Source: Acidobacteriota bacterium
Lineage (GTDB): Bacteria > Acidobacteriota > Terriglobia > Acidoferrales > 2-02-FULL-67-57
Length of the DNA: 6,202 nucleotides
Assembly (NCBI GenBank): GCA_016210895.1
Contig: JACQTG010000186.1
Location: forward strand, 1 to 6,202
Reading direction: 5' to 3'
A program made the translations under genes and the position numbers. The first letter of the stretch is position 1; every line of letters starts with the position of its first letter. Of the stretch, positions 1,018 to 6,202 are shown one piece after another. The notes under the pieces were generated by a model. The model saw nothing but the letters and a program-made list of their open reading frames with translations, was not told the origin of the DNA and made no database searches.

Positions 1018-1551
1018 TTAGAACTGGTTCTTGGGCACACGCCCCAGCACGATGCTTCCTGAGTAGTAAGCAAAGACGACAGCCTGAATCAAGAGCGGAG
1101 CAAAAGGAGAAACCAGCAGACGTGGCCAGGCTATTCCTCGCGGCAGCGTAACAAGCGGGATTCCAACCGCATTGGCAACCAACACAAGCGCGGCGATGGC
1201 CCTCCCCGCGTAGCGAAGCGCTTGCCGCTGCGAGCCCACCGCTTTCCATACCCAGTCCAGCACGATCGCGTTGCCTACTATGGCCAGACCAATGGTCAGG
1301 AACAGAACCCACTGAACGAAGGCCGCGAGTCCCGACCATTCGCTGCCCTGGGTTCCTCTGGCTCCCATACCGCGAAAAGATGCGAGCACCATCAGCGCAA
1401 GGCCCATGAGTGCGAAGACCCGGCAGAGGGTGGGGAGACGCGACGTTGCCTTGGGGGCAGCAGGTGGCTCACACCGGGGGCACGCCAGGCGTTCGACGGG
1501 AACTTGGCCGCCGCAGGTGCGGCAGGTCCAGTAGATATTCGACGTGCGCAT
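1018..1551 (-). CDS. Zinc-ribbon integral membrane protein of unknown function
   Basis: A 177-residue protein that I cannot place in a named family. The N-terminus carries a rubredoxin-like zinc ribbon, C10-X2-C13-X10-C24-X2-C27, followed by a short Pro/Ala linker. Four hydrophobic segments come next, at about 41-59, 77-99, 114-136 and 147-168, so it should be a four-helix inner-membrane protein. The short ribbon is likely cytoplasmic. The ATG at 1551 places the ribbon right at the N-terminus, and only a weak purine-rich site precedes it. It starts 28 bases after the end of the GluRS-like gene and ends 12 bases before the cupin gene, which suggests one transcription unit of three. Such ribbon-plus-helices proteins are common among uncharacterised bacterial membrane proteins; no activity is claimed. 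Confidence 0.75.
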   Translation of the reverse strand: MRTSNIYWTCRTCGGQVPVERLACPRCEPPAAPKATSRLPTLCRVFALMGLALMVLASFRGMGARGTQGSEWSGLAAFVQWVLFLTIGLAIVGNAIVLDWVWKAVGSQRQALRYAGRAIAALVLVANAVGIPLVTLPRGIAWPRLLVSPFAPLLIQAVVFAYYSGSIVLGRVPKNQF

Positions 1552-1579: not shown

Positions 1580-2587
1580 CTAGACGAAAACGGAGCAGAA
1601 CTCCAGCACCCGCTGGCGGCAGCTCTTCACCGGCTGGGGCAGCGGCAGTTGGCTGCCGGTTTCGAGAATCGGCACCAGCTCGGCCAGCTCGGGGCCGAAA
1701 GGCAGCCCGGTCAGCATCACGCGGATAGGGGCAAGAAAGGCGCGGCCTTTGCGATGCGTCGCCTGCCGGACCTCTTTCAGGATGCCCGCCAGGCGCTCAG
1801 TCGTCAGCCAACTGTCGGCCAGGGCGCGCCGGCCGAACTCGCGGATGACGTCGCGGGCACCCTCGCGTTCGAGCGCCGCGCGGCTGTCGGGAAACGCGAG
1901 TGCCTGCTCGGCCGAATAGCGGAAGATGAACCGGGTGCGCTGAGGCAACAGGGAGAGGAAATCGAGCCCGGGCAAAACGGATTGAATCACGGCTTTGAGC
2001 CACTGGCGGACGGGTTCGGTTGGTTCCTCGGGGAGGTAGCCGGGGGCGGTGAAGTAGGCCAGGCTCAGCTCGAGCAAGCGGTCGAGATCGGCCTGCTGGA
2101 GCCAGTGGTGGTTCAAGGCGCGGAGCTTCTCCGCGTCAAAGTGCACCGGGGTCGAGATGATTTGCTCGGGGTGGAAGACGCGCTGAAGCTCGTCGGGCGA
2201 CAGGCTCTCGCTCGTGCCCTCGGGCGGCCGCCAGCCGAGCAGAGCCAGGAAGTTGACCAGGGCTTCGGGCAGGACACCGAGCCGGCGCAGCTCGGCAACA
2301 GACGTAGCGGCCGTTCCGGTTCCCCAGGGTGCCGGCTCCGATGGCAGAATGTCCGGTAGCCGCCTGAGCCACTCCGGTTCTTTTGCTTCCTTTGCCTCGA
2401 CTCCCAGCCAGCGCAATTCCTCCCGCCAGAGGTGGCGGCCCGGGGGGATGACGAACGGCTTGCCCTGCTGCCCCTCCCGCCCCCGGTGGGGGCGGCTCCA
2501 GAGCCAGCGGTAGAGCGCCTCCCGCGCCGCGGCAACCGTCAGGCCATGCTCGGCGGTGAGGTTCGACGGTGTGTAGCGGCAAACCAT
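1580..2587 (-). CDS. Glutamyl-tRNA-synthetase-like protein lacking the catalytic core
   Basis: A 335-residue protein descended from bacterial glutamyl-tRNA synthetase (GluRS, usually about 470-500 residues). The N-terminus MVCRYTPS matches the GluRS start VxTRxAPSPTG, and AREALYRWLWSR (21-32) matches the helix after the HIGH signature. The HIGH tetrapeptide itself aligns with TVAA (17-20), and the RIEDTD stretch is gone. After REELRWLG (55-62) the normal sequence jumps to ATSVAELRRLGVLPEALVNF (94-113), which in GluRS directly follows KMSKR; the KMSKR position reads PWGTG (87-91). About 170-190 residues of the Rossmann and acceptor-binding region are therefore missing. From 94 to about 310 the stem-contact and anticodon-binding helical domains are well kept, including FDAEKLRALNHHWL (150-163) and the terminal RVMLTGLPFGPELAELVPIL. 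It cannot be a normal aminoacylating enzyme. The ATG at 2587 is chosen because homology begins there; the GTG at 2626 would add 13 residues without a ribosome site. Its place after ispD-ispF is the classical gltX position. A true gltX must be elsewhere in the genome (inference). Confidence 0.85.
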   Translation of the reverse strand: MVCRYTPSNLTAEHGLTVAAAREALYRWLWSRPHRGREGQQGKPFVIPPGRHLWREELRWLGVEAKEAKEPEWLRRLPDILPSEPAPWGTGTAATSVAELRRLGVLPEALVNFLALLGWRPPEGTSESLSPDELQRVFHPEQIISTPVHFDAEKLRALNHHWLQQADLDRLLELSLAYFTAPGYLPEEPTEPVRQWLKAVIQSVLPGLDFLSLLPQRTRFIFRYSAEQALAFPDSRAALEREGARDVIREFGRRALADSWLTTERLAGILKEVRQATHRKGRAFLAPIRVMLTGLPFGPELAELVPILETGSQLPLPQPVKSCRQRVLEFCSVFV

Positions 2588-2672: not shown

Positions 2673-2846
2673 TTAGCCAGTGGTAGGTTGTTGCTTGCGA
2701 CGCTTGCGCGCCAGCCACTCGCGCGCCAGCAGGGGTAGCTCAGCGCGCTTCAATTGCCCCTGCTCGTGGAGCTTGAGTTTTTCCTTCAGGCGCTTGCGCC
2801 GCCGCTGATGCTTCTTCCGCGTTCGGAATCGTTTCTGGCGTCCCAT
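2673..2846 (-). CDS. Small highly basic protein, 57 residues, unknown function
   Basis: This open frame encodes MGRQKRFRTRKKHQ... ending in KRRKQQPTTG. About 40% of residues are Lys or Arg, there is no Asp and only four Glu, so the isoelectric point must be very high. Residues 3-25 form an almost continuous basic stretch, and residues 31-50 (QLKRAELPLL followed by AREWLARKRR) look helical and amphipathic. That composition is typical of ribosomal or other RNA-binding small proteins, but it does not match a ribosomal protein I recognise. It resembles only loosely the small basic domains of unknown function found in several phyla. It sits between ispF (94-base gap) and the GluRS-like gene (85 bases to its ATG), in the same direction. 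A promoter candidate and a dyad precede it, but the ribosome site is weak. It is likely real because the frame is compositionally coherent and fills the gap, but without comparison this is not proven. Confidence 0.6.
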   Translation of the reverse strand: MGRQKRFRTRKKHQRRRKRLKEKLKLHEQGQLKRAELPLLAREWLARKRRKQQPTTG

Positions 2847-2940: not shown

Positions 2941-3423
2941 TCAGATTCCCTCCAGCAGGACGACAGCGTGGGCGGCTATGGCTTCGCCGCGGCCGATGGC
3001 TTCCTGGCCCTCGGTGGTCTTGGCCTTGACGTTGACCTGCGCCGGCTCGAGGGCGAGCGTGCGGGCCAGCGTTTCACGCATCTGGCCAAAGTACGGGGCC
3101 AGCCGGGGCTGCTCGGCCACGACCACTGTATCCGCCTGCGCCACGCGCCAGCCTTTCTCGCCCACGAGCTTCGCCACGCGTGCCAGCAGCTCCAGGCTGG
3201 AGGCATCTTTCCACTTGGGGTCGCTGTCGGGGAAGTGTTGACCGATGTCGCCCAGGCCGGCGGCGCCGAGGATGGCGTCGCAGAGAGCGTGCGTCAGCAC
3301 ATCGCCGTCGGAGTGTCCCGTCAGTCCCTTGTCGTGGGGAATCCCCACTCCGCCCAGGATGAGCTTCCGCCCCGCCACCAGCCGATGGTAGTCATACCCA
3401 ATCCCTACGCGCGGAGCGGCCAC
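2941..3423 (-). CDS. ispF: 2-C-methyl-D-erythritol 2,4-cyclodiphosphate synthase
   Basis: IspF cyclises 4-diphosphocytidyl-methylerythritol 2-phosphate to methylerythritol 2,4-cyclodiphosphate with loss of CMP, in the MEP isoprenoid pathway. It works as a cytoplasmic homotrimer with a divalent metal. The 160 residues match the usual length. Visible are the N-terminal RVGIGYDYHR (D11 and H13 metal ligands), ILGGVGIPHDKGLTGHSDGD (H37 ligand), LGDIGQHFPDSDP (58-69), and the C-terminal KAKTTEGQEAIGRGEAIAAH (133-152). All key positions are present, so it should be active. The start is GTG at 3423, one base past the ispD stop, with GGAGGA (3431-3436) seven bases before it inside the ispD 3' end. 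This arrangement implies translational coupling with ispD. Confidence 0.97.
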   Translation of the reverse strand: MAAPRVGIGYDYHRLVAGRKLILGGVGIPHDKGLTGHSDGDVLTHALCDAILGAAGLGDIGQHFPDSDPKWKDASSLELLARVAKLVGEKGWRVAQADTVVVAEQPRLAPYFGQMRETLARTLALEPAQVNVKAKTTEGQEAIGRGEAIAAHAVVLLEGI

Positions 3424-3424
3424 C

Positions 3425-4132
3425 TTATTTTCCTCCGGAGGCGCGTTCCTGGCTGAGGAGGAAGCGGGCGAGTTCGAGGTCGGCGGGCTTGGTGATTTTG
3501 ATATTGCAGTCGGAGCCTTCGATGACCGTCACCTCGTGGCCGAGGCGCTCGACCAGCACCGCCTCGTCCGAGCCATGATAGCCGTCGGCCTCCGCGCGCG
3601 CGAAGGCTTCCTTGAGCAGCGCGTAGCGGAAGACCTGCGGGGTCTGCGCCAGCACAATGCGCTCGCGCGCCAGCGTCCCCGTGACGCGGGTGCGCTCAAT
3701 CTGTTTGACGGTGTCGGTGACCGGCAGGGCCAGAATGGCCGCCCCCGAGGCCGCAGCGGCGTCCAGTACCTTCTCGACCAGCTCCACCGTGACAAAGGGG
3801 CGGACGGCGTCGTGCACAGCCACCAGTTCCGTGTCAGCGGGCAGCCGCGCCAGACAAGCGGCGACGGACTCCTGGCGGTAGTCGCCGCCTTCGACCAGCG
3901 TGATGCGCTCGCGGTAGGGCTCGCGCGTGAGCGCCGCCTCGGCCGCAGCCTTGTCTTCCGGGTGTACGGCAACGAACAGGTGCTCCAGGCGCGCGCAGGC
4001 GGCCAGCTTGCGCAGGGTCCAGAGAAGGAGGGGAGCACCCTCCAGTTCGAGCAGTGCCTTGTGGCGCCCTGAACGTTCGCGGTCCATACGAATGCCGAGG
4101 CCGGCGGCGGGTACGATGGCTACGGTTTTCAT
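3425..4132 (-). CDS. ispD: 2-C-methyl-D-erythritol 4-phosphate cytidylyltransferase
   Basis: IspD transfers CMP from CTP to methylerythritol 4-phosphate, two steps before IspF in the MEP pathway. The 235 residues are full length. Motifs in order are the nucleotide-binding loop PAAGLGIRM (8-16), K25 in the following loop (HKALLEL, replacing the more usual PKQ), EGGDYRQESV (81-90), VHDAVRPF (106-113), QTPQVF (163-168), GSDEA (187-191) and the C-terminal KITKPADLELA (212-222). The ATG at 4132 has AAGGAG at 4143-4148, ten bases upstream. It follows the PIN-TRAM gene by 76 bases and precedes ispF by one base, an order known from other bacteria. The replacement of PKQ by HKA is a mild variation; catalytic residues otherwise look intact. 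Confidence 0.97.
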   Translation of the reverse strand: MKTVAIVPAAGLGIRMDRERSGRHKALLELEGAPLLLWTLRKLAACARLEHLFVAVHPEDKAAAEAALTREPYRERITLVEGGDYRQESVAACLARLPADTELVAVHDAVRPFVTVELVEKVLDAAAASGAAILALPVTDTVKQIERTRVTGTLARERIVLAQTPQVFRYALLKEAFARAEADGYHGSDEAVLVERLGHEVTVIEGSDCNIKITKPADLELARFLLSQERASGGK

Positions 4133-4208: not shown

Positions 4209-5381
4209 CTACTCGTCGCTGACGACTTCGTAATGCTCGCCGCGATTGCCCGCCCGCTGGTTGGCCCGGGGCTCGCGGCCAGCCACCGCCTGGGAGTTGG
4301 AGGCGTTGCGTTCGGGCTGGGGAGACGGCTCCGGCGCAGCGTTTTGGTTTCGACCAGCTGGCTGCGGCGTGCGGTCAGCGGCTTCGGGGCGCGCAGGACG
4401 CGCTTCTTCGAAGCGGCCGAAGATCATCTTGCCGGCGGTGGTTTGCAGAACGCTGGTGACGATGACGTCGATGGTCTTCCCGATCAGGCGGCGGGCGTTG
4501 TCGACCACCACCATGGTGCCGTCGTCGAGGTAGGCGACCCCCTGGTTGTGCTCCTTGCCTTCCTTGAGGATGAAGACCCGCATGGTTTCGCCCGGCAGCA
4601 CGATGGGCTTCAGGGCGTTCGCCAGCTCGTTGATGTTCAGGACCTCGAGCCCCTGGAGCTGCGCCAGCTTGTTCAGGTTGAAGTCGTTGGTGACGATCTT
4701 GCCGTCGTAGCGCTTGGCCAGCTCGATCAGCTTCAGGTCAACGTCGCGCAGGTGGGGGAAGTCGTCGTCGATGATTTCGACCTGGAGGTTGTGAATCTTC
4801 TGAATCCGCTGCAGGATGTCGAGGCCGCGGCGGCCGCGGTTGCGCTTCAGCGCGTCGCCCGAATCGGCCACGAGTTGCAGCTCGCGCAGCACAAACTGCG
4901 GAATCAGCAGGATGCCGTCGACGAAGCCGGTCTCGCAGATGTCGGCGATGCGGCCGTCGATGATGACGCTCGTGTCCACAATCTTGAAGCTGCGCTTGGG
5001 GCGCTCGCTGCCAAACAGCCCGCCCAGGGCGGTGAGGTTCAGCAGGTCGCCCTTATTGGCGCCGACCACCAGGCCGACGTAGGTCATAAACAGCAGCAGG
5101 GCAATCTGCAGGAAGGCCAGGCTGCGGGATTCGATGTTGGTCTGGGCCAGCACCAGGGTCATCAGGTAGGCGCCCAGGATGCCGAGGATGGAACCGATGA
5201 CGGCGCCAATCAGGCGCTTGAGGCTGACGCGCCGCAGGCGCATCTCAAACAGCACGATCGAAAGCCCGAACAAGACCCCGAACAGGCCCGAGTAGAAGGG
5301 CGGCAGGCGGAAGGGCCGGATGTGGTAGGAGGCCACGGTGGTGATGATGATGAACACACTCCGGATCAGGGTGAGATCCAT
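4209..5381 (-). CDS. Membrane-anchored PIN-TRAM domain protein (YacL type)
   Basis: A 390-residue protein with four hydrophobic N-terminal helices (about 4-20, 30-47, 57-79, 88-108), then a PIN nuclease domain (about 131-255), a TRAM domain (about 260-322) and a polar tail rich in Pro, Ala, Gln, Asn and Arg (325-390) that looks disordered. PIN acidic residues are visible: D136 in KIVDTSVIIDGR, E167 in VLRELQ, D213/D215 in LRDVDLKLIELA and D233 in TNDFN. The TRAM part, VFILKEGKEHNQGVAYLDDG (269-288), is a putative RNA-binding module, so a membrane-bound ribonuclease is the likely activity. The substrate is unknown. It matches Bacillus YacL in domain order and in its place before ispD. The ATG at 5381 is chosen because the membrane segment starts there as in relatives, but it lacks a clear ribosome site; a longer form starting near 5522 is possible. 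Confidence 0.85.
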   Translation of the reverse strand: MDLTLIRSVFIIITTVASYHIRPFRLPPFYSGLFGVLFGLSIVLFEMRLRRVSLKRLIGAVIGSILGILGAYLMTLVLAQTNIESRSLAFLQIALLLFMTYVGLVVGANKGDLLNLTALGGLFGSERPKRSFKIVDTSVIIDGRIADICETGFVDGILLIPQFVLRELQLVADSGDALKRNRGRRGLDILQRIQKIHNLQVEIIDDDFPHLRDVDLKLIELAKRYDGKIVTNDFNLNKLAQLQGLEVLNINELANALKPIVLPGETMRVFILKEGKEHNQGVAYLDDGTMVVVDNARRLIGKTIDVIVTSVLQTTAGKMIFGRFEEARPARPEAADRTPQPAGRNQNAAPEPSPQPERNASNSQAVAGREPRANQRAGNRGEHYEVVSDE

Positions 5382-5528
5382 CCACCCCCAGCGCTCCCCG
5401 GTGGGCAGTAAGGACGTCCCCGAAGACTGGGAACCGGTCGAAGCCGCGGTATTGGTGACTCGGGATTCGCCGTGTCGGCCTTGCAAGAGGCGGCGGCGCC
5501 CGGGGTCGGAGCCTGCGCGGATAACTCG

Positions 5529-5535
5529 CCTCCTT
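5529..5535 (-). promoter_or_regulatory. Strong Shine-Dalgarno sequence (AAGGAGG) with no standard start codon after it
   Basis: AAGGAGG lies about 28 bases after the expected transcription start of the PIN-TRAM gene, an ideal leader length. No ATG, GTG or TTG follows within 4-12 bases in any frame. Six bases on is ATC (5520-5522), in frame with the PIN-TRAM gene. Either this is a rare ATC start adding 47 residues, a decayed start, or a chance match. Confidence 0.45.
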
Positions 5536-5569
5536 ATGAAGGCAAATAAAGCCCTGAATTTACTGGGTG

Positions 5570-5599
5570 AGTATAGCACCGCCCGAAAACCACCGGCAA
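5570..5599 (-). promoter_or_regulatory. Extended -10 promoter for the PIN-TRAM - ispD - ispF block
   Basis: On the - strand, TTGCCG (5594-5599) and TATACT (5570-5575) are 18 bases apart, and TGC directly precedes the -10 hexamer (5576-5578), giving the extended -10 TGnTATACT. Transcription should start near 5562. It lies about 130 bases past the alr stop and points into the PIN-TRAM gene. It also overlaps the farthest in-frame start codon (GTG at 5579), which rules that codon out as the translation start for this transcript. Confidence 0.65.
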
Positions 5600-5727: not shown

Positions 5728-6202
5728 CTACTCGAGGTAGACGCGGGGGACGCGGGGGCCGAGGCCGGTCAGTATTTCCGAGGCGACACTGCCCAGCGTG
5801 CGCGCGGGCTCAGTCGGCGGGATCGCCGCCTGGCCGGATTCGCCAATCAAGATGGCTTCATCGCCCGGCTGTGCCTCGGGGACCTCGGTGAGGTCGATGT
5901 GGGTCAGGTCCATTCCGATCGTGCCCACAACCGGGGCATAGCGACCCCGCACGATGACGCGGCTGCGGCCGCTCAAGCCGCGCCGCCAGCCGTGGCCGTA
6001 GCCGATCGGCAGCAGGCCCATGCGTGCCAGCCGCGGCGTCACGAAGCGGGCCCCATAGCCAACGGTGGCTCCGGCAGGAAATGCGCGGATGGTATAAATG
6101 CGCGCCTTGAGGGTCAGCGCCGGGCGCACCGGCCACTCGCGGTAGAACTCCGCCGTGCGGTCGTTCCCATTGAAGGTGAAAAACGAGAGATACCCGTAGA
6201 GC
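5728..6202 (-). CDS. alr: Alanine racemase, C-terminal part (cut by window edge)
   Basis: The last 157 residues of a PLP-dependent alanine racemase, which interconverts L- and D-alanine for peptidoglycan synthesis in the cytoplasm. The frame runs off the right edge, so the N-terminal barrel and the PLP lysine are outside the window. The fragment begins LYGYLSFFTF, the end of the barrel, and continues into RPALTLKARIYTIR and the C-terminal beta domain. The catalytic tyrosine is in VGYGARF (fragment residue about 49), followed by LLPIGYGHGWRR and the substrate-pocket Met-Asp in GTIGMDL (about 96-98). The GYADGY motif common in the family reads GYGHGW here, a modest change. The protein ends GPRVPRVYLE, as expected, so the 3' end is complete. 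It is probably a separate transcription unit from the PIN-TRAM gene because a strong promoter lies between them. Confidence 0.93.
   Translation of the reverse strand, partial: LYGYLSFFTFNGNDRTAEFYREWPVRPALTLKARIYTIRAFPAGATVGYGARFVTPRLARMGLLPIGYGHGWRRGLSGRSRVIVRGRYAPVVGTIGMDLTHIDLTEVPEAQPGDEAILIGESGQAAIPPTEPARTLGSVASEILTGLGPRVPRVYLE

Follow-up and report, generated by a model that had tools for sequence, protein, structure and literature searches.

A glutamyl-tRNA synthetase derivative lacking the catalytic core and keeping the anticodon-binding half in Acidobacteriota

The stretch of DNA studied here (the window) covers the 6,202 nucleotides of contig JACQTG010000186.1 from an Acidobacteriota bacterium (assembly GCA_016210895.1). 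On its minus strand, positions 1580..2587 (stop codon included) encode a protein of 335 amino acids (aa) that resembles glutamyl-tRNA synthetase (GluRS). The gene was delineated by its open reading frame (ORF), Pfam and NCBIfam matches, an 89-row family alignment and a structure model. Our alignments show that this protein has lost its catalytic signatures together with about 153 residues from the active-site and acceptor region, and our tree that its family descends from the acidobacterial HxGN type of second GluRS (GluRS2). The window gene is a member of a real, conserved family, and we lean towards regarding its proteins as non-catalytic RNA binders.

In alignment with 16 full-length GluRS2 of the HxGN type (GN), the HIGH position of the window protein reads TVAA (residues 17–20, 2528..2539); the KMSKR position reads PWGTG (residues 87–91, 2315..2329). 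The same readings had been given in an earlier note made from this DNA alone, and its observation of a GluRS derivative without catalytic signatures and core, with the tRNA-contacting C-terminal half kept, is confirmed by the alignment. The approximate junction at which the connective and catalytic residues are missing lies at residues 62–70 (2378..2404). The stem-contact domain after KMSKS (residues 94–170, 2078..2308) is marked by the match to TIGR00464 (bacterial gltX), which starts at residue 94, and by codon-position divergence. It is followed by the anticodon-binding half (residues 171–335, 1583..2077; Pfam Anticodon_2), which ends in the C-terminal tail PVKSCRQRVLEFCSVFV (residues 319–335, 1583..1633). 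All these segments are on the minus strand. With 101.8 bits the whole protein stays below the curated TIGR00464 cut-off of 289.95, and it contains a GluRS-type anticodon-binding domain. Structure models predict a GluRS-like fold for the stem-contact and anticodon-binding domains of the window protein, and likewise for both short designs, the one of 335 aa (B form) and a smaller one of about 190 aa, in which the anticodon-binding domain is the sole part retained (C form). In the structure comparison of the B form, GluRS took all 26 top rows, and a family with an oligonucleotide/oligosaccharide-binding (OB) fold may occur outside those rows.

The window protein is not alone in its design. A protein search scored 7,998 candidates sharing most words, of which 333 had E ≤ 1e-3, and the best 120 of the 333 were inspected. 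The family alignment (P0001–P0089, 282–351 aa, window protein included) leaves out P0090, P0091 and P0093 (248–278 aa, partial looking), proteins of 185–191 aa and full-length GluRS. All 89 aligned proteins have the short design; the 88 relatives are 47–75% identical to the window protein and none is full length, and the best full-length GluRS among the matches listed (P0092) is 41% identical. The signature His and Lys are missing in 88 of the 89 rows, the rows tallied. At the KMSKR position there is a Gly in 89/89 rows and a Trp in 83, and its place is now taken by a conserved WGQWSG-like stretch. Where an organism is given, the source labels are Terriglobia, Acidobacteria, Acidoferrales or Acidiferrales, and once Candidatus Xenobia. 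Most of the listed entries that have a name are 'hypothetical protein', and several carry glutamyl-tRNA synthetase labels. No bacterial free-standing GluRS anticodon-binding domain or core-less GluRS is described in the open-licence papers searched, and as far as could be found the family is undescribed.

For the anticodon half, a quick tree was computed by maximum likelihood from 156 columns and 100 rows, among them 21 of the 89 B-form proteins and 26 C-form rows. Both forms fall within the HxGN GluRS2 clade, apart from GluRS1 of the HVGG type. In the Shimodaira–Hasegawa-like approximate likelihood ratio test the B clade has a support of 100 and the C clade of 99; the clade of B, C and GN together, which also holds the full-length database GluRS P0092, P0094 and P0095, has 99. 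B and C forms are not sisters in this tree, and grouping them together is not rejected (approximately unbiased test, p 0.45; 0.32 with the reduced set). Their single origin is favoured by three observations: they occupy the same operon slot, in genome G093 ispF and rlmB are separated by an intermediate consisting of the anticodon domain only (locus L198, 41% identical to the window protein), and eight alignment columns have a residue common to B and C that differs from the GluRS2 consensus (Arg249 and Cys331 are at 100% in both). Against it stand 17 columns common to B and GN and four common to C and GN. According to the available excerpts of PMC3927822, some Acidobacteria have two GluRS, the acidobacterial GluRS2 is predicted to be inactive and the proteobacterial type is treated as a chimera. 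Our results point to an active GN enzyme in part of the class, since HIGH and LSKRHG are kept in 16/16 full-length loci (L062–L077) and in G227 and G278 it is the sole GluRS found, with glutaminyl-tRNA synthetase (GlnRS) beside it.

The C form is shown by its substitutions to be under purifying selection. Specifically, the ratio of nonsynonymous to synonymous rates (dN/dS) has a median of 0.13 and a range of 0.05–0.32 in 45 pairs from 35 distinct genes (identity ≥ 70%, dS 0.1–2). A wider run, in which some genes were counted twice from overlapping loci, gave medians of 0.18 for the C form (237 pairs), 0.14 for rlmB (844) and 0.13 for ispF (691); for the 184 pairs measured for all three genes, the C form has 0.17 versus 0.09 for rlmB and 0.10 for ispF. 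The C form is constrained, though less than these neighbours. The B genes are too diverged for dS, and divergence at codon positions 1/2/3 was compared instead. It is 0.19/0.11/0.43 in the closest pair (L002–L058) and 0.31/0.30/0.52 between L001 and the window, the codon pattern of purifying selection, with residues 1–93 only weakly constrained. The term 'relic' used in the earlier note fits poorly with a conserved family whose anticodon-domain-only form is under purifying selection. Conservation of the C-terminal 17 residues is higher in the short forms (B 0.87, C 0.80) than in full-length GluRS2 (0.61) or GluRS1 (0.22). Arg residues 249, 241, 282 and 289 are conserved, and the whole B and C proteins have an acidic isoelectric point (pI).

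The B-form relatives suggest that the window host belongs to the order around genome G089, for which 95 genomes were available. An uninterrupted C-form match is present in 61 of them, the B form in four (G001, G002, G003, G177), the intermediate form in one (G093) and frame-interrupted copies in two (G312, G047). In 19 genomes ispF is followed by rlmB at a distance of up to about 235 bp with no short gene between; two of these have remnants (G318 and G101), a 22-residue piece at L201 and the C-terminal 29 residues at L208. In the other eight, ispF either could not be located or lies in a locus truncated by a contig end, and absence may be a gap in the metagenome-assembled genome (MAG). A weak match in L210, overlapping ispF, was not counted. 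The losses are scattered across the GluRS1 tree, some as whole clades, and GluRS1 is of the same type in genomes with and without the short gene. The short gene is dispensable. The earlier note considered a chaperone or competitor of the real GluRS; an essential role of this kind is unlikely, as the 19 gene-less genomes keep the same GluRS1 type.

Regarding the locus, ispF (2941..3423, Pfam YgbB 3e-67) is the conserved upstream neighbour, and like the other window genes given with positions here it lies on the minus strand. The C form is located 3' of ispF on the same strand and within 373 bp in 20/20 fetched loci; the window gene and those of L001, L058 and L059 occupy this slot too. In each of the 35 C genomes fetched the locus contains ispF. 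The gene that follows is rlmB in 23 of 25 B/C loci; it is on the opposite strand in L050 and not adjacent in the window. Its position in most relatives is here taken by a non-conserved ORF for a membrane protein (1018..1551) with no match in the Pfam search of the window proteins. The N-terminal CxxC pairs of this ORF resemble a zinc ribbon. By tblastn, the zinc-ribbon, cupin and fmdB genes of the window were not found in any of the 24 other B/C loci compared, some of them with short flanks, which leaves the once proposed complex with the membrane neighbour unsupported. Directly upstream of the B-form gene there is a very basic, Lys/Arg-rich ORF of 57 aa (2676..2846; 55–59 aa in relatives), a probable co-operonic partner without a Pfam family. 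It is found in 5/5 B loci and in none of 105 other loci, 20 C loci among them (tblastn, E ≤ 0.01). A database search listed seven proteins of this type, the window's own included; four of the seven are on contigs equal in length to B-form contigs (6202, 7150, 23471 and 11614), one pair with adjacent locus tags. As the ORF accompanies B loci only, among the loci scanned, this supports the 57-aa protein and the B form being a working unit. Further upstream in the window are ispD (3425..4132, Pfam IspD 1.5e-59), a PIN/TRAM protein gene (4209..5579, Pfam TRAM and PIN), which lies close to the short gene in 14 of the 20 C loci, and alr for alanine racemase (5728..6201, Pfam Ala_racemase_C), truncated at the window end. 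Among 30 genomes lacking the short form, two have a full-length gltX directly after ispF (L131 in G257 and L134 in G295). The operon order in Bacillus is yacL-ispD-ispF-gltX ... rlmB.

The most likely job of the short protein would be binding RNA without catalysis. On balance we slightly favour a non-catalytic, GluRS2-derived accessory protein that binds RNA, probably at the anticodon arm of tRNA(Gln/Glu). It may still bind the anticodon arm of a GluRS2 substrate (tRNA-Gln, tRNA-Glu or both) or an RNA mimicking that arm. The newly constrained C-terminal tail would hold a partner and, in the B form, do so together with the basic protein encoded just upstream. The short protein would then work as an accessory tRNA-binding protein or an RNA-level regulator, not as an enzyme. 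A more far-reaching version is tentative: one acidobacterial order might have converted a whole synthetase into a free-standing protein that acts in trans and reads the anticodon arm of tRNA(Gln/Glu), in two sizes, with new residues R241/R249 and the KSCR.R.LEFC tail, the larger form having the 57-aa basic protein as its dedicated partner.

That the window gene is a normal gltX altered by an assembly or deletion artefact deserves practically no credence: the 88 database relatives, together with MAG contigs L001–L003 carrying the same B design, refute it and bear out the earlier opinion that an assembly error is not the cause. It is also improbable that the short gene is a functionless, eroding remainder of a GluRS2 that became redundant beside GluRS1 and was deleted stepwise (510, 335, 190 aa, remnant, nothing). 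The graded size series itself speaks for such erosion, as do the 19 gene-less genomes with their two remnants, the two further copies with interrupted frames, the GluRS1 type that is equal with and without the gene, and a constraint weaker than on ispF and rlmB. However, erosion does not agree with a dN/dS of 0.13–0.17 and an unbroken match in each of 61 C-form genomes, nor with the shared constraint at R241, R249, C331 and the tail, the conserved stretch replacing KMSKR and the 57-aa protein co-encoded in all B loci. For the C form it is largely refuted, dN/dS being well below 1.

Alternatively, the short protein could be an obligate trans helper that supplies tRNA(Gln) recognition, so that GluRS1 makes Glu-tRNA(Gln) for GatCAB in place of GlnRS or GluRS2; we rate this no higher than erosion. 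Such a role would suit the charging enzymes of the order. At E ≤ 1e-60, GlnRS was absent from the 76 genomes of the order included in the class draw; it was found in 84 of the 223 others, with 82 genomes over the cut-off. No full GN GluRS2 was found in the 76 either, and the 12 genomes with GlnRS and GN GluRS2 together are all outside the order. gatB is over the cut-off in 38 of 41 genomes tested, and GluRS1 has an Arg at the putative Thermus Arg358 position in 21/21 rows of one alignment and 50/50 of another, which by the Arg358 rule would make it Glu-specific. Yet this Arg is the same in carriers and losers, the gene-less genomes keep the same GluRS1 type as the sole GluRS found there, and, with the thresholds used, 88 class genomes outside the order have no GlnRS, GN GluRS2 or short form. 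An obligate part in tRNA(Gln) charging is unlikely because the gene-less genomes seem to get by on GluRS1 alone. A full GluRS is over the cut-off in 19 of 24 B/C genomes (exceptions G002, G003, G214 with a fragment, G262 and G097) and a separate full-length one is present in G093. The second complete gltX looked for in genomes with the 335-aa form is there in G001 and G177; the small MAGs G002 and G003 yielded none. Somewhat less improbable, though still doubtful, is that RNA binding has been lost too and the helical half serves as a protein scaffold or regulator, e.g. of RlmB or another neighbour product. The greatest gain in constraint at the C-terminal tail, the acidic pI and the frequent adjacency of rlmB fit with this; but rlmB persists after loss of the short gene and its strand or position differs in L050 and the window, and the four conserved Arg residues suit RNA contact at least equally well.

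The best-known shortened GluRS, GluQ-RS (YadB), retains the catalytic half. Both it and the window protein are shortened GluRS paralogues, but the anticodon domain is absent from GluQ-RS, whereas in the window protein Pfam, NCBIfam and alignment find the catalytic half absent and the anticodon domain present, so 'reverse design' was an apt description. HisZ, which regulates an enzyme, was derived from the catalytic core, the very part removed in the short GluRS forms. As a synthetase descendant with another job, it resembles them, together with other non-catalytic synthetase paralogues treated in the excerpts of PMC7373986. The proposed mode, a non-catalytic tRNA binder beside synthetases, is that of the Trbp111/Arc1p cofactors (PMC11286949, in part); there the fold is OB, unlike the helical GluRS anticodon-binding domain predicted for the short forms. 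Second gltX products of the Koribacter and Acidobacterium type, in the parts of PMC3927822 available, represent the parent family by our tree, and their two C-terminal domains have the same fold. The HxGN enzymes differ in having about 500–550 aa and both catalytic motifs, neither of which is left in the short forms, and while these lie by ispF, no ispF turned up in the flanks fetched for the 16 full-length genes. The same parts call isolated GluRS N-terminal domains rampant in bacteria and make no mention of an isolated C-terminal one; chimeric GluRS2 enzymes could have been put together from loose modules of the same kind as the short protein. Here the part that reads the anticodon has persisted by itself under selection, and one order still displays intermediate sizes and losses. 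This is a natural series for asking about synthetase roles besides tRNA charging, and it justifies giving names to the 335-aa family and to up to about 2,400 database proteins. If the trans-acting reader is true, bacteria have a class of tRNA-binding proteins built from the synthetase half that GluQ-RS discards.
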